A stretch of 37,183 bases of DNA from an uncultured bacterium (GTDB lineage: Bacteria; Patescibacteriota; Saccharimonadia; CAILAD01; BJGX01). The notes under the pieces are model-generated. The model was not told where the DNA came from. It did no database searches and saw nothing but the letters and a program-made list of their open reading frames with translations. Made by a program: the position numbers and the translations under genes. Positions 1 through 28,465 of the stretch are shown here, one piece after another; position 1 is the stretch's first letter, and the number at the start of each line of letters is the position of its first letter. The stretch is taken from contig CAILAD010000020.1 of assembly GCA_903832035.1 (NCBI GenBank), positions 1-37,183 on the forward strand. Reading direction: 5' to 3'.

Positions 1-345
1 CGTATCGTCTATGAAAATAACTTAATCTTAGTATTCTGCCCGTACGCCAGCCTTTGGCCATTTGAACTCTGGATAATTCCTAAAAGACAGGTAAGTTCTT
101 TTGAAAATATAACCGATAGTGAGATAGACTCGATTGCGATGGCCCTAAAAAGATACCTGAAGAAACTTACTGGCCATAAGATAAGCTTCAATATGTACTT
201 AGAGAATGGCATCAGCCCACACCAGAGATTCTGTTTAAAAATTTGTGGTCGAAGCAACATATGGGGTGGTTTTGAGGTTGCTAGTGGAATAGTTATAAAT
301 ACCGTACCCCCAGAATCAGCAGCCTTATGGTACAAATCTAAATAA
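1..345 (+). CDS. Galactose-1-phosphate uridylyltransferase-like (HIT-superfamily) protein, C-terminal fragment cut by the window edge
   Basis: Frame 1 is open from base 1 to the TAA at 343-345: RIVYENNLILVFCPYASLWPFELWIIPKRQ...GGFEVASGIVINTVPPESAA. The GFE.(A/G)(S/T)G..INTVPPE C-terminus is typical of GalT-like proteins. Confidence 0.75.
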   Translation, partial: RIVYENNLILVFCPYASLWPFELWIIPKRQVSSFENITDSEIDSIAMALKRYLKKLTGHKISFNMYLENGISPHQRFCLKICGRSNIWGGFEVASGIVINTVPPESAALWYKSK

Positions 346-12506: not shown

Positions 12507-12668
12507 AAAAAAGTCCGCTGTATCGAGAGTCATAAATAACCCTTCCCGCCAAAAGCTAGGTGGGTGCTCGCAGTCACCTGGATAGACCAGGCACAATCTA
12601 AAGCTCCCGGGAGTTATGTTTAATCAGAAAAAGTTATTAGACTTTAAAATTCGAATACAGCAGACTCA
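12507..12668 (-). ncRNA. Stand-alone structured small RNA, class unassigned (6S-like topology is a hypothesis)
   Basis: TATAAT on the minus strand at 12680-12675. 5' GTCTGCTGTATTCGA pairs with 3' TCGATACAGCGGAC, then T6. Internal helices ATAAC/GTTAT, CCCG/CGGG and CCTGG/CCAGG. No ORF in the interval. Confidence 0.7.
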
Positions 12669-12675
12669 ATCTACA

Positions 12676-16844: not shown

Positions 16845-17561
16845 TTAGTTAGTTAGATTTATAATACTTTGTAGAGTTTTATTCTCTAACGAATCATCGA
16901 GGTTCTTGAGTACAAAATTTGGCTCTATTTTATGTACTGCTTTTTCTATTAAGAAGTCGGCAACTTTTGGGTTTTTTGGCAGAAATGAACCGTGCATGTA
17001 CGTACCGATTGAATTACCCTGAATTATGCCCTCTCCAATTGACTGACTGGTATTCCCAAAACCCTTCAGCACTTTTCCGAGCGCTAAGCTACCATCTAGG
17101 AGTTCTGTCTCTCCGCTATGATTTTCAAAACCAACCATCTCTCCAAACACATCATTTTGCACCACTAGGTTGCCAATCATCCTTTGATCACTAGCCCTGG
17201 TTACCAAGTCAAATAGTCCTATTCCAGGTAACTTTTCACCTTCCGACGTTACAAAATACTTACCGAATAACTGATAGGCTCCACATATTGCCAGGATTGG
17301 GGTTCCTCTTCGGGCATGATCGTGGATTATGTCTGATTTAAGTAATAAGTCCTTAGCTACCAGCTGTTGCCCCCTGTCTTGACCGCCACCCATGAATATA
17401 ATGTCATATTCACCCTTTAAATCATCACCGATTGAGACAGGGTGGTAAGTACTTTTTATACCTCGCCACTCCATTCTTTTCTGTAAAGTAATAATGTTGC
17501 CAAAATCACCATATATATTCATCCTGTCAGGATATAAATGAAGTATTTTTATAGCCCTCAT
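16845..17561 (-). CDS. gatD: Lipid II isoglutaminyl synthase, glutaminase subunit
   Basis: ILHLYPDRMNIYGDFGNIITLQKRMEWRGI, DIIFMGGGQDRGQQ, PILAICGAYQLFG, GTYMHGSFLPKNP; adjacent to murT. Confidence 0.93.
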   Translation of the reverse strand: MRAIKILHLYPDRMNIYGDFGNIITLQKRMEWRGIKSTYHPVSIGDDLKGEYDIIFMGGGQDRGQQLVAKDLLLKSDIIHDHARRGTPILAICGAYQLFGKYFVTSEGEKLPGIGLFDLVTRASDQRMIGNLVVQNDVFGEMVGFENHSGETELLDGSLALGKVLKGFGNTSQSIGEGIIQGNSIGTYMHGSFLPKNPKVADFLIEKAVHKIEPNFVLKNLDDSLENKTLQSIINLTN

Positions 17562-18943
17562 TTTGATATTCCTTTCAGCTTTACGGCACTAAATCTAGAT
17601 ATAGTCTGTCTCATTTCCAGCATGGCAGTGTAGGTATTGAGAGCATACACAATCCCCGACTCACTAGGGTCAGCTGCCGTAGCTAAATCTAGAGCTTGCT
17701 TGAGGGTGTTGGCAATTTTGATGTTGTCCATGTTAAAACCGGCGTATTTAAGCCTCAGGGCCATATCATAGCTTCTACTACCACTAACTACTATCTTGCC
17801 GGTGTAGGAACTAAGGTCTTCTAGTGCGCTGTCCCATAACCAAGACACATCCCTACCATCAGCGATATTGTCGTTTATCGATAATATTAAGGTATTAGAC
17901 TGTGGTTTCGGCTTCAGGTAGGTCTGAATAATCTGATTGAAGCCCGTTGGGTTCTTTATTAGAAGTAATTTAACACGCCGACCAGAGTATTCGATGCTCT
18001 CACCTCTGCCGAAGGCCGAGGAAGTCTTGGATAAGGATCTAATAGCCTCGTCTACACCTAGGCCCAATGCTTCGGTAGTCGCCAATGCTGCTAGGGAATT
18101 GTATATATTATATATACCGGGCAGTGAAATGTTTATTTTTTTCAATTGTGTAGATATTTTTACATCGAAATCAGATCCAACTTTGGTGAGTGAGCGCATT
18201 TTTATCAAATTAATATTGGGCTCTGGTCTTGTATATTTTTTATTCTTTGAGGTGTAAATACCTATATGTCCAAAATAACGTTGTAGATATTGCAACTTTT
18301 CTCCGCTCTCCTGCTCAAAGACGCTATCTGCTGTGTGGTCATTTATAATTTTATCGCCTTGGTAGTCAGATATGCCAAAGAATATTGGTTTATTTAGCGC
18401 CTTTATACCTATAGAAGCTACTAAGGGGTCATCAGCATTTAAAACTAGCTTGCTTTTAGTGCCAGCAAATGTCTTTTCAAAGCTTTTTGCAATACTATCC
18501 AGTTCACCGTATCTGTCCAGCTGGTCTCTAAATAGGTTTGTCACCACCACATACTTGGGCTTGATTGCGCTACAAACAGATGGGACGTAAGCTTCATCCA
18601 CCTCTAATACAGCCATTCTAGCCTTATTTCGGCCTCTTAAATTACTGTTTTGTATAAGAGTCGAGATAATTCCCCTACGCATGTTTGAGCCCGCAGTATT
18701 GCGAATGTGCACTACTCCGCTACCGTTGAGCATATCAGATATCATCTTACTAGTGGTCGTTTTGCCGTTCGTACCTGTAACTACGACTATTCCATCTGGG
18801 AAATTACCCTTAACTAGCTTTGACATTAGATTACCATCTACCTTTTCGGCCAGAAGGCCAGGCAAAGCTGTGCCGCTCTTACCAAGTATCCTACCTGTTG
18901 AGTAGGCTGACTTAGCTAGTATAATAGCAATCGTTTTCTTCAT
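17558..18943 (-). CDS. murT: Lipid II isoglutaminyl synthase, Mur-ligase-like subunit
   Basis: VVVTGTNGKTTTSKMISDML, VLEVDEAYVP, VVTNLFRDQLDRYGELD. 4-nt overlap with gatD. Confidence 0.93.
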   Translation of the reverse strand: MKKTIAIILAKSAYSTGRILGKSGTALPGLLAEKVDGNLMSKLVKGNFPDGIVVVTGTNGKTTTSKMISDMLNGSGVVHIRNTAGSNMRRGIISTLIQNSNLRGRNKARMAVLEVDEAYVPSVCSAIKPKYVVVTNLFRDQLDRYGELDSIAKSFEKTFAGTKSKLVLNADDPLVASIGIKALNKPIFFGISDYQGDKIINDHTADSVFEQESGEKLQYLQRYFGHIGIYTSKNKKYTRPEPNINLIKMRSLTKVGSDFDVKISTQLKKINISLPGIYNIYNSLAALATTEALGLGVDEAIRSLSKTSSAFGRGESIEYSGRRVKLLLIKNPTGFNQIIQTYLKPKPQSNTLILSINDNIADGRDVSWLWDSALEDLSSYTGKIVVSGSRSYDMALRLKYAGFNMDNIKIANTLKQALDLATAADPSESGIVYALNTYTAMLEMRQTISRFSAVKLKGISK

Positions 18944-18955
18944 AGCTATATTGTA

Positions 18956-19840
18956 TCAGCTGTTGTTGTAAGTCTCTAGATAGGCAGTAATCATTGTGCT
19001 GGCTTCTTTATAGTTGTGTACCCAGTGAATGGCATCATTTCGCTTGAACCAGGTTAACTGTTTTTTGACCAGCCTCCAAGTTGAGGAGTTGATAGCCTCC
19101 TCAAGTTTATCTAGGTCAATCTTTTGATCCAAATAATCTAATATTTCAGCATACCCCGTTGTGGTTTTTAGAATGTCACAGTCGCCATATTCTAGTCTTA
19201 GTTTTTCAACCTCTTGAATAAAGCCTTTATTCAACATTCTTTTTGTTCTAACCGCTATATTTTGCTTTAATACAGGCATTTCTACCCTTATACCAATAAC
19301 TAGTGAATTGACTTTGTTAACCTCTCTATCGCTATCTTTACTTGGTCCCTTGCTAATTAATTGCTCAACTCTACGTCGGTTTTTTACGTCAATCTCGGAA
19401 AATTTTTCAGGATATTTTTCTTTAGCAATACTCTGTAATTCAATCAATGACAGTCCTTCTAAAGCACTCTTCTCTGCTGCCGATATGTCGCTTCTAAAGC
19501 TGTAGTCATAGAGGACCGAATCTATGTACATACCACTACCACCTACCATAATGGGGATGTTACCTCTACTTCTAATATCTTCAATTGCCCCATAAGCCCT
19601 TTTTTTAAACTCGGCTGCGCTTATTAGCTCATCTGGATTCGCTATATCAAGCAGATGGTGGGTAACATCAGACTGTTCCTCGGGCGTTGGTTTGGCTGTA
19701 CCGATATTCATACCCCTATAAACTGTCCTAGAGTCAGCGCAGATTATCTCTCCGCCAAATTCATGAGCAGCCTTTATGCCCATGGCTGTTTTACCTGAGG
19801 CTGTAGGCCCCAGGATTGTTACAAGCTTTGCAGTCTCCAT
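18956..19840 (-). CDS. miaA: tRNA dimethylallyltransferase
   Basis: LVTILGPTASGKTAMGIKAA, ICADSRTVYRGMNIGTAKP, VGGSGMYIDSVLYDY. Confidence 0.96.
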   Translation of the reverse strand: METAKLVTILGPTASGKTAMGIKAAHEFGGEIICADSRTVYRGMNIGTAKPTPEEQSDVTHHLLDIANPDELISAAEFKKRAYGAIEDIRSRGNIPIMVGGSGMYIDSVLYDYSFRSDISAAEKSALEGLSLIELQSIAKEKYPEKFSEIDVKNRRRVEQLISKGPSKDSDREVNKVNSLVIGIRVEMPVLKQNIAVRTKRMLNKGFIQEVEKLRLEYGDCDILKTTTGYAEILDYLDQKIDLDKLEEAINSSTWRLVKKQLTWFKRNDAIHWVHNYKEASTMITAYLETYNNS

Positions 19841-19841
19841 A

Positions 19842-21653
19842 CTATATTGATCTAGTACTTATGTCCTTAAGTATAGTAGACTTAAATTCGTCTAGAGGCA
19901 TCGAGCCCTGATCTCCCTTAGAGTACTTTCTAATAGCGACCGTACTTGATGCCTGTTCTTTCTCGCCAACTACCAGGGTATACGGAACCTTATACATTTC
20001 ACTGTCCCTGATTCGCTTCCCTAGAGACTCATTGTCATCATCTAGTACAACCCTAACACCTGATTTCTTAAGGTCCTGATAAACATTACGGGCATAATCT
20101 GTGAATTTTTCTGAAACCGGCAATATTCTAACTTGCTCAGGGGCTAACCACAAAGGAAAAGCTCCAGCAAAGTGCTCAATTAGGATCATTATAAATCTTT
20201 CAAATGAACCAAAGATAGCCCTATGAATCATAACGGGATGTTTCTCTTGGCCTTCAGAGTCCGTGTAGGCTAGGCTGAACCGCTTAGGCATGGCAAAGTC
20301 GAGCTGAAGTGAGGCGAGCTGTGTTTCGCGCCCCTGAGCATCTCTAAACATGAAGTCTAGCTTAGGACCGTATATTGCAGCTTCACCTTCCATGCGTTTA
20401 GCTTTGAGTCCCTTCTCTTCAGCGACTTCCTTTAATATTCTCTCTGATTCCGACCAATCTTTATCATCTCCGATATATCTATCCAGCTTTTCTTTGTCTC
20501 TCACAGACAGCGAAACCCAGTGATCACCCCAGAGACCAAGTGAACTATAAAAGCTGGTGATAATATCTACTATCATTTCTGCCTCATCTCTAATCTGATC
20601 AATTGTACAGAAGGTATGGCCGTCATCTACTGTAAAACCCCGAGTTCTTTGTAAACCACCTATTTCACCTGGCTTTTCATCTCGGTACTGCATAGTCTGC
20701 TCTACATAACGAATTGGTAGGTCCCTATAGCTCCTAGGTCTTGAGGCAAATATCTGGGTATGATGCGGACAATTAACCGGCTTAAGCACAAACTCTTGCT
20801 TGTGGTGGCTTTGTACAGTAAATAGCTCTTCCTCGAATTTTTCGGCATGTCCAGAGGTCAAATAAAGTTCCTTTTTTGCTAAATGAGGTATAGAAACTTG
20901 CTGCATATCGTACTTATGGCCCAATTCCTCGAGCGCGCGTTTAAGTTCCTGGATGATTACTGAGCCACGAGGTGTGTACATCGGCAAGCCTGGCCCAACT
21001 AAGTCAGAAAATACGAATAGATCAAGCTCTTTACCTAATTTGCGGTGGTCGCGTCTCTCCGCTTCAACCAACATTTCCTTATATTTTGCCAAATCAACTT
21101 CTGTTGTAAAAGCTACACCATATATTCTTTGCAACTGGGGGTTATTTTCATTTCCTCTCCAGTAGGCACCAGATACTTTTGTTAGATCAAAGGCTTTGGC
21201 ATTTATCTCAGAGGTGTTATTAACATGAGGTCCACGGCATAAATCAACAAAATCACCAGTTCTATAAACAGTAACGCTCTTAACCTCAGTACCACTTGCG
21301 ACCAGGTCATCATCTCCAGAATCCTTGACTGCAGTCGACCCTTTTTCTCTCAGGTCATTTAAAAGTTCAACCTTAAAATCTTGTCTTTTTTCTGTAAAAT
21401 ACTGTATTGCTTGGTCTATCGGCCATTCTTCAGTTACGAAATCAATCTTTTGTGATATCAATTTTTGCATCTCTTTGCGTATCTTACCGAGTTCACTTAT
21501 TTCAATGGGCTTATCTAGCTGCATATCATAATAAAACCCGTTGTCGATGACTGGGCCAACACCAAACTTTGCTTCTGGATGCATCTTCTGCACTACTGCG
21601 GCCATAATATGGGCGAGGCTGTGTCTTGTTTTGTGTAAATCATGATCATTCAT
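19842..21653 (-). CDS. thrS: Threonyl-tRNA synthetase
   Basis: HSLAHIMAAVVQKMHPEAKFGVGPVIDNGFYYD, FVLKPVNCPHHTQIF, RGFTVDDGHTFC. Confidence 0.97.
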   Translation of the reverse strand: MNDHDLHKTRHSLAHIMAAVVQKMHPEAKFGVGPVIDNGFYYDMQLDKPIEISELGKIRKEMQKLISQKIDFVTEEWPIDQAIQYFTEKRQDFKVELLNDLREKGSTAVKDSGDDDLVASGTEVKSVTVYRTGDFVDLCRGPHVNNTSEINAKAFDLTKVSGAYWRGNENNPQLQRIYGVAFTTEVDLAKYKEMLVEAERRDHRKLGKELDLFVFSDLVGPGLPMYTPRGSVIIQELKRALEELGHKYDMQQVSIPHLAKKELYLTSGHAEKFEEELFTVQSHHKQEFVLKPVNCPHHTQIFASRPRSYRDLPIRYVEQTMQYRDEKPGEIGGLQRTRGFTVDDGHTFCTIDQIRDEAEMIVDIITSFYSSLGLWGDHWVSLSVRDKEKLDRYIGDDKDWSESERILKEVAEEKGLKAKRMEGEAAIYGPKLDFMFRDAQGRETQLASLQLDFAMPKRFSLAYTDSEGQEKHPVMIHRAIFGSFERFIMILIEHFAGAFPLWLAPEQVRILPVSEKFTDYARNVYQDLKKSGVRVVLDDDNESLGKRIRDSEMYKVPYTLVVGEKEQASSTVAIRKYSKGDQGSMPLDEFKSTILKDISTRSI

Positions 21654-21671
21654 CAGTTATACCTTTCATTA

Positions 21672-21824
21672 AATAAATAAAAACCACCCTACAATGCTCG
21701 GCCCCATATTACTGGGGGGTTCCACCGAGCTTATCCAGGCGGATCTCTCTTTTGTGTATGTAACGCCCTACACTGCGAAGCCTTTGGGTAGTTGGTTAGT
21801 CTACTTACTTACTTTATTAAACTT
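21672..21824 (-). promoter_or_regulatory. T-box riboswitch leader of thrS
   Basis: Minus-strand GCTCGG-TGGAACC-CCCC-AGTAATAT-GGGG-CCGAGC (21730-21696) forms the antiterminator with its 7-nt bulge. Competing terminator AACCCCCC/GGGTGGTT is followed by TTTATTT, 20 nt upstream of thrS. Confidence 0.85.
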
Positions 21825-21830
21825 AGTCGT

Positions 21831-21859
21831 AGTATAACAAATATACCCATATGTGACAA
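21831..21859 (-). promoter_or_regulatory. Sigma70-type promoter of the thrS leader
   Basis: TTGTCA (21859-21854), 17 bp, TATACT (21836-21831). Confidence 0.75.
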
Positions 21860-21874
21860 TAAAGACCTTATTTA

Positions 21875-21903
21875 TTGACATATTCTAGATTAAGTAGTAT
21901 CAT
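21875..21903 (+). promoter_or_regulatory. Sigma70-type promoter of the zinc-ribbon gene
   Basis: TTGACA (21875-21880), 17 bp, TATCAT (21898-21903). Confidence 0.75.
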
Positions 21904-21954
21904 ATTGGTCATATCAGATGTTCTGATAGTTCATTCCAATAAGGAGGTTGTGAC

Positions 21955-22533
21955 TTGGAAAAGTCTAACTGTGCTAACTGTAACAAGTCCACTCACAAGA
22001 TCGTATACAGCAAGTACGGCGATATCTGCAGCAGTTGCTACTGGAAGAAGCGTCGAGTTGACCCGAACTTCAGATACGAATGCAGCAGGTGCCAAAAAGT
22101 GAGGCCTCACGGCAAGTGGCTAGATAAGTCAGCCGGGGTAAGGATTTGTGACATTTGTGCAAATAAAGACCGGATGAAGAACGAATCAAGGCTCAAGGAA
22201 TGCAGCAGGTGCAGCAGGATAGCCATCCCAGCAAGGTCTAAGCCACATGTGCTCTGCCCATCCTGTGAATCACTCAGGTACTACAAAGACAATTCCAAGC
22301 ATGAAACCTGCAGGCTCTGCAAAGCCTCAAAGTCGGTACATGTCCGTAATGAAGCTGGCATGCCTATCTGTCAAGGATGCGACAGGCAGCTAAGTGTTAA
22401 GGACCCATCCACTCACAAGCCCTGTGGCGAGTGTGGTAATGTCAGGTTCGGTCACACTAGTAAGAAGACTGGTAAGCACACTTGCAGGTCTTGCTACTAC
22501 AAAGCCAAAAAGAAGTTGCAATCCAGCAACTAA
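21955..22533 (+). CDS. Protein with five tandem C4 zinc ribbons, function unknown
   Basis: 192 aa with ten CxxC pairs (CANC/CSSC, CSRC/CDIC, CSRC/CPSC, CRLC/CQGC, CGEC/CRSC). TTG start preceded by AAGGAGG. Confidence 0.8.
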   Translation: MEKSNCANCNKSTHKIVYSKYGDICSSCYWKKRRVDPNFRYECSRCQKVRPHGKWLDKSAGVRICDICANKDRMKNESRLKECSRCSRIAIPARSKPHVLCPSCESLRYYKDNSKHETCRLCKASKSVHVRNEAGMPICQGCDRQLSVKDPSTHKPCGECGNVRFGHTSKKTGKHTCRSCYYKAKKKLQSSN

Positions 22534-28389: not shown

Positions 28390-28465
28390 TGGAGCCGATG
28401 AGCGGGATCGAACCGCTGACCTACGCTTTACGAAAGCGCCGCTCTACCAACTGAGCTACATCGGC
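28390..28465 (-). tRNA. tRNA-Thr (CGU), discriminator U, CCA encoded
   Basis: GCCGATG...GCGCT-TTCGTAA-AGCGT...GGTTCGATCCC...CATCGGCTCCA on the minus strand. Confidence 0.95.

Follow-up and report, generated by a model that had tools for sequence, protein, structure and literature searches.

Known T-Box Systems

In T-box riboswitches, the anticodon of the tRNA pairs with a specifier codon, the NCCA end of the tRNA pairs with a UGGN bulge, and Stem III latches onto the resulting complex. The published scheme builds the 5' arm of the terminator from the 3' strands of A1 and A2 (PMC7583486). According to the same review, transcriptional T-boxes generally require a long Stem I and its contact with the tRNA elbow (PMC7583486). 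An ultrashort Stem I with the codon in its apical loop is attributed, in the review's account of Sherwood et al. 2015, to the translational class II T-boxes of Actinobacteria, mostly those of ileS (PMC7583486). The purine motif RRRxG-Stem III-AA is a discriminator feature of known T-boxes, and a G-U pair at the base of A2 is a sensor detail of known structures (PMC7583486). A table from 2008 counted T-boxes in only a few phyla (PMC2494555), and a literature search over open-licence papers gave no report of T-box riboswitches together with Patescibacteria, the candidate phyla radiation or Saccharibacteria.

In this ultra-small bacterium of the Saccharibacteria type, the thrS leader is very probably a reduced T-box riboswitch responsive to uncharged tRNA-Thr. 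Comparison of related leaders suggests that it switches in an unusual way, with a terminator that encloses the tRNA-binding hairpin and leaves it intact. On these sequence-based grounds, the reading as a T-box-type riboswitch that attenuates thrS transcription, with a nested terminator and a Stem I of ultrashort form, is given a probability of about 0.8.

The thrS Locus and Its Leader

The window, i.e., the whole stretch of 37,183 nucleotides that was analysed, is contig 20 of a source genome of 632 kb in 49 contigs. The thrS locus comprises:

19842-21653, minus strand: thrS (Pfam tRNA-synt_2b, HGTP_anticodon and tRNA_SAD, the ThrRS domains)
21667-21662, minus strand: SD-like GAAAGG of thrS
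21831-21859, minus strand: candidate sigma-70-type promoter of the thrS transcript, TTGTCA-17-TATACT (consensus match only)

The two promoter hexamers (TTGTCA at 21859-21854 and TATACT at 21836-21831, spacer 17) match the consensus at 10 of 12 positions. The leader extends over 21654-21830 (minus strand; ~170 nt as a whole), and its position before thrS is conserved in relatives. Closely spaced downstream of thrS are miaA and then a MurT-type ligase gene, in tandem on the minus strand (17558-21653); all three genes may be under T-box control. The folding energy of the leader is ordinary (z = -1.26), so the case for a T-box rests on comparison.

Within 21875-22533, a divergent promoter-like sequence on the plus strand (TTGACA-17-TATCAT) faces a 192-aa ORF, which carries many CxxC pairs and is without any Pfam match. 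A 6S RNA match in this reduced genome, at 12508-12669, scores 47.1 bits, just above the gathering score of 46.4.

Stem I, Specifier Codon and tRNA Ends

The elements that would contact the tRNA anticodon, the neighbouring Stem II region and the tRNA-Thr of the window are:

21788-21804, minus strand: ultrashort Stem I hairpin, GUAG-ACUAACCAA-CUAC (5/5 pairs covary in 12 relatives)
21794-21796, minus strand: specifier ACC (Thr) in the apical loop, followed by A
21754-21773, minus strand: Stem II-like hairpin with a GGGCGU loop (conserved GCGUA-type loop)
28390-28465, minus strand: tRNA-Thr(CGU), with discriminator U73 and encoded CCA

Stem I is a hairpin of 4-5 bp with a 9-nt loop, recovered independently by RNAalifold, and is without the long Stem I that carries the elbow-binding double T-loop motif. 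A Thr codon stands at a fixed place in the loop, ACC in most relatives and ACU or ACG in others. The competing reading of the specifier as AAC is excluded in leaders that read UCACC. A tRNA-Thr(GGU), the reader of ACC, is encoded in the genome. The preliminary description of this locus, made from the sequence, had called Stem I very short and had pointed to 21786-21797 for the Thr specifier; the former is supported, and the latter is now resolved as ACC at 21796-21794.

Each of the three tRNA-Thr encoded in the genome has a UCCA end, whose U73 is complementary to the bulge A. Of the 35 tRNAs listed, only tRNA-Cys and a single tRNA-Gly share this end with them. The discriminator U, the encoded CCA and the match to the UGGA bulge had been correctly described for the tRNA-Thr of the window.

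In the Stem II region, some relatives carry AGUA/GAA-like segments in addition to the hairpin with the GCGUA-type loop. A pseudoknot in this region found no covariation support with RNAalifold in the alignment of relatives. Its candidate pairing, between GGCG of the Stem II loop and CGCC near Stem III, was dropped because one relative (G291) keeps GGCG but has no CGCC there.

Antiterminator and Stem III

Downstream, the leader carries the following elements:

21745-21749, minus strand: purines GAGAG 5' of Stem III, which fit RRRxG
21733-21744, minus strand: Stem III, AUCC[GCCU]GGAU (100% paired; 2/4 pairs changed on both sides)
21732-21731, minus strand: AA directly after Stem III
21725-21730, minus strand: A1 5' strand, GCUCGG (5/6 A1 pairs covary; 100% paired)
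21718-21724, minus strand: T-box bulge UGGAACC (invariant in 14/14 relatives; UGGA complements the tRNA-Thr end UCCA)
21702-21717, minus strand: A2 helix and loop, CCCCA GUAAUA UGGGG (100% paired; 2/4 counted pairs changed on both sides)
21696-21701, minus strand: A1 3' strand, CCGAGC (covariation of A1)

thrS leaders were sampled from the family, the order, the class and beyond; the comparative set for A1, A2 and Stem III consists of 14 leaders of the order. In these relatives, 100% of the cells of the three helices are paired, and 9 of the 14 pairs are changed on both sides (7 of 10 for A1 and A2 alone). The cells changed on both sides number 28, whereas shuffles average 8 and slid controls give no more than 2. 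RAGNG and AA flank Stem III in 14/14 relatives, and the bulge base N is A in 79 of 80 thrS leaders. The A2 strands (5' CCCC, 21717-21714; 3' GGGG, 21705-21702) are joined by a fifth, A-U pair.

The strings quoted in the preliminary description, the promoter included, are all present on the minus strand. Its antiterminator of a 6-bp A1, the UGGAACC bulge and A2 stands as described, with the fifth A2 pair in addition, and the bulge and helices it had named are kept in close relatives. Its central claim, a T-box-type element before thrS in a genome of Patescibacteria (Saccharimonadia), is supported by covariation, codon and bulge.

The base of A2 is a U-A pair in 12/14 and a C-G pair in 2/14 thrS leaders; G-U is absent there, whereas the ileS leader of the same genome does have it. 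As a sensor detail of known structures, this G-U pair is by itself no membership criterion.

A descriptor (a TGGNACM bulge between an A1 of at least 5 bp and an A2 of at least 3 bp) gave one weak match in 60 dinucleotide-shuffled windows, none as good as the observed one. Among the loci of the genome that were scanned, it matched only the thrS leader and one locus before ileS, and the pattern GTGGNACC matched thrS only.

Two Candidate Terminators

The tail of the leader can be paired in two ways, which involve the following elements:

21738-21742, minus strand: 5' arm of the predicted terminator, CCGCC, overlapping Stem III (pairing with the tail, covariation)
21684-21688, minus strand: 3' arm of the predicted terminator, GGUGG (RNAalifold, pairing counts, folding energy, tail exchange)
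21679-21683, minus strand: U tract of the predicted terminator (directly after the 3' arm in all relatives but one)
21689-21682, minus strand: GGGTGGTT, 3' arm of the terminator proposed in the preliminary description (U-run from 21683)

Without prompting, RNAalifold matched the strand of Stem III to the tail (CCRCC with GGYGG-U5). The pairings read CCACC/GGUGG and CCGCC/GGCGG, and CCGCC/GGUGG in the window. In this helix, which encloses the intact A1/A2 and adjoins the U tract, 98.6% of the cells are paired and 7 cells are changed on both sides. Divergent Stem III strands have matching tails, as in CGCCCC/GGGGUG (G229), CGCUCGCC/GGUGGGUG (G302) and a 12-pair helix (G317). When own tails were compared with exchanged ones, only 9 of 20000 permutations were as good for thrS and 0 of 20000 for the nested ileS leaders; these permutation and pairing controls do not fully remove relatedness, and the alignments are small and drawn largely from metagenome assemblies. 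The G-C state of the nested helix requires at least two separate changes on the ThrS tree.

For the window, the nested form is the energy minimum at -31.3 kcal/mol, with Stem III plus A1/A2 at -21.6 and the first proposed terminator at -17.6 kcal/mol. The OFF form thus lies 9.7 kcal/mol below the ON form, as energies of isolated strands at equilibrium and not of co-transcriptional folding. This gap may be large for a tRNA to overcome, though co-transcriptional folding can change it.

The preliminary description had placed the terminator in a mutually exclusive hairpin, AACCCCCC/GGGTGGTT, which in the manner of the canonical switch would take the bulge and the 5' strand of A2 and destroy the antiterminator. 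The string is indeed present with one mismatch, and the U tract allows AACC/GGUU to pair in every relative. However, the central mismatch is kept in 13/14 relatives, no compensatory change occurs, 75% of the cells are paired, and the own tail pairs no better than the tail of another species (8119 of 20000 permutations as good). It is also 13.7 kcal/mol weaker than the nested form. The alignment of related thrS leaders that had been suggested as a check shows covariation in A1/A2 and none in this hairpin. The hairpin is not the conserved terminator, and a canonical switch is improbable here.

The supported terminator pairs the Stem III strand and encloses A1/A2 instead of destroying it, so that Stem III, not A1/A2, seems to be the strand that competes with the terminator. 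The predicted terminator and the tRNA-bound fold exclude each other via Stem III, and their topology is not that of the canonical switch. A terminator hairpin of its own follows A1 in the thrS leaders of many other class members (by eye, with energies computed) and overlaps the A1 3' strand by a few bases; this platform is closer to the published T-box scheme (PMC7583486). Both platforms are found even among the ileS leaders of the window's family.

The nested helix might instead belong to the ON-state structure or serve as a processing signal, with the switch acting otherwise, e.g., on translation. The helix is compatible with A1/A2, it is short in the window (5-6 pairs, one of them G-U), and a simple terminator scan gave no match. 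Against this, the 3' arm adjoins the U tract in relatives, and formation of the helix precludes Stem III, on which known T-boxes depend for binding the tRNA end (PMC7583486). Moreover, other class members have ordinary local terminators at the same place, the enclosing helices of the ileS versions reach up to 17 pairs and end in a U tract, and the SD-like sequence lies outside the helix. Such a role is as improbable as the canonical switch, and the nested terminator is retained.

Covariance-Model Searches and Distribution

A search with the Rfam T-box model RF00230 had been put forward as a check on the element. A relaxed Rfam cmscan returned only unrelated weak matches; RF00230 gave no match to the thrS leader at E-values up to 10 and none on the source genome, where it misses both the thrS and the ileS T-box, though dedicated covariance models find the leader. 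Such models recover the thrS T-box in nearly all members of the order searched. Model R1, built from the thrS leaders of the order, matched 58 of 148 class genomes, places before ileS included, and model R2, built from 53 class leaders, matches 61 of 290 Patescibacteria genomes, most of the best loci preceding thrS. RF00230 itself matches 96 of the 290 genomes drawn from Patescibacteria (9 above the gathering score) and only 5 of 14 named control genomes. T-boxes are common across Patescibacteria, and the standard model misses some of them.

In many class members, leader inspection and the R1 search gave no recognisable thrS T-box, so that the element is patchy or further diverged. In the Saccharibacteria genera g9 and g19 (e.g., L225, L226, L228, L230 and L232), without a recognisable thrS T-box, it is lost or much changed. 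In two relatives, G296 (C20, C3) and G317 (C32, C33), an assembly break near the leader places leader and thrS on different contigs. Long-form T-boxes elsewhere in Patescibacteria (L081-L090) have, by eye, a long Stem I and precede genes resembling tyrS, argG and sulfate adenylyltransferase. thrS leaders of Chloroflexota (L005, L009, L064) also carry T-box sequences (GGGTGGAACC), which may bear on a common origin of the element.

A Sister T-Box before ileS

The source genome carries a second T-box, before ileS (contig C4, about 350-590; L323, L357). It was found through the ileS gene and a wider pattern; R1 and R2 listed only thrS in this genome. Its Stem I hairpin, GUGG[CUAUCCA]CCAC, holds the Ile codon AUC, and its A1 (GCAGGA/UCCUGC) is followed by a UGGUACC bulge, the element reading ATGGTACC. 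The bulge base U fits A73 of the genome's own tRNA-Ile. A nested terminator, CCCUAUGG/CCAUGGGG-U5, is predicted here as well, at -27.7 vs. -18.5 kcal/mol, the same behaviour as in the thrS leader.

In the class, ileS leaders carry the hairpin GCGG[CUAUCAA]CCGC or a similar one, its loop again holding AUC for Ile; of 22 leaders, 17 have U as the bulge base, 4 have A and 1 has C. Codon and bulge thus follow the gene in most cases. The ileS T-boxes L292, L296, L307, L308 and L288 have a UGGA or UGGC bulge, which would mismatch A73 of tRNA-Ile.

In E. coli, thrS is autoregulated by ThrRS, which binds a tRNA-like leader. Autoregulation of this kind is very unlikely here: the leader is structured and thrS leaders of other bacteria do act so, but its loop carries the codon ACC and not the anticodon GGU, the UGGA bulge with A1/A2 is T-box-specific, and in the ileS counterpart codon and bulge are exchanged jointly. 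Attenuation by ribosomes translating a Thr-rich leader peptide, which would likewise fit a U tract and a hairpin before thrS, can be set aside, as the short frames in the leader are without Thr codons and the covariation follows the T-box elements.

Proposed Mechanism

Conservation, helix covariation, gene-matched codon and bulge, the tRNA ends and the default OFF folding point to a T-box leader that would bind tRNA, sense its charging, and terminate or allow readthrough. In the nascent leader, the hairpin loop would present the codon ACC for pairing with the anticodon of tRNA-Thr(GGU). The UCCA end of an uncharged tRNA would bind UGGA of the bulge that separates A1 from A2, and Stem III, together with the purines on either side of it, would lock against this duplex. 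Stem III would then hold CCGCC, leaving GGUGG-U5 without a partner, and RNA polymerase would read into thrS and probably further into miaA and murT. With the tRNA charged or absent, CCGCC would leave Stem III and pair with GGUGG, forming a rod that contains the intact A1/A2 and ends in the U tract, where transcription would stop. As the default folding is OFF, uncharged tRNA would have to stabilise Stem III. The SD-like GAAAGG is located 12 nt past the U tract, outside the helices of the folding prediction; with the U tract preceding a free SD-like sequence, control is most likely exerted at transcription.

If this mechanism holds, the leader would be a natural tRNA sensor of very small size that controls transcription without elbow contact, and transcriptional T-boxes would need no elbow-binding module. 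It would also represent a second way to wire a T-box terminator. The element would further suggest that host-dependent bacteria with reduced genomes monitor their amino-acid supply via tRNA charging, and it could supply regulatory parts for a group in which inducible expression is still to be developed (PMC11665869).

Comparison with Known T-Boxes

Like the glyQS T-box of B. subtilis, the element lies in the leader of an aminoacyl-tRNA synthetase gene and has a UGGNACC bulge between A1 and A2, a Stem III with RRRxG and AA flanks, a cognate specifier codon and a U-tract terminator. Unlike glyQS, the thrS leader has no long elbow-binding Stem I, its specifier sits in an apical loop, RF00230 misses it, and in its predicted terminator the tail is paired to Stem III while A1/A2 persists.

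The short Stem I with the specifier in the apical loop is shared with the actinobacterial class II ultrashort T-boxes, as the review describes them. By the same description, those act on translation and mostly precede ileS, whereas the element described here precedes thrS, has a U-tract terminator and leaves the SD-like sequence outside the predicted fold.

Closer at hand, the hairpin Stem I recurs in the class's ileS leaders, some of which also have the nested terminator; these leaders differ in the codon AUC, the mostly UGGU bulge and their greater length, with segments resembling Stem II (by eye). The long T-boxes that RF00230 detects in other parts of the phylum differ in their full-length Stem I (by eye), and some of them reach the gathering score. 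It is rather probable that the thrS and ileS leaders of Patescibacteria represent an architecture of their own among T-boxes, with a minimal hairpin Stem I without elbow contact, A1/A2 persisting in both states and Stem III competing with the terminator.
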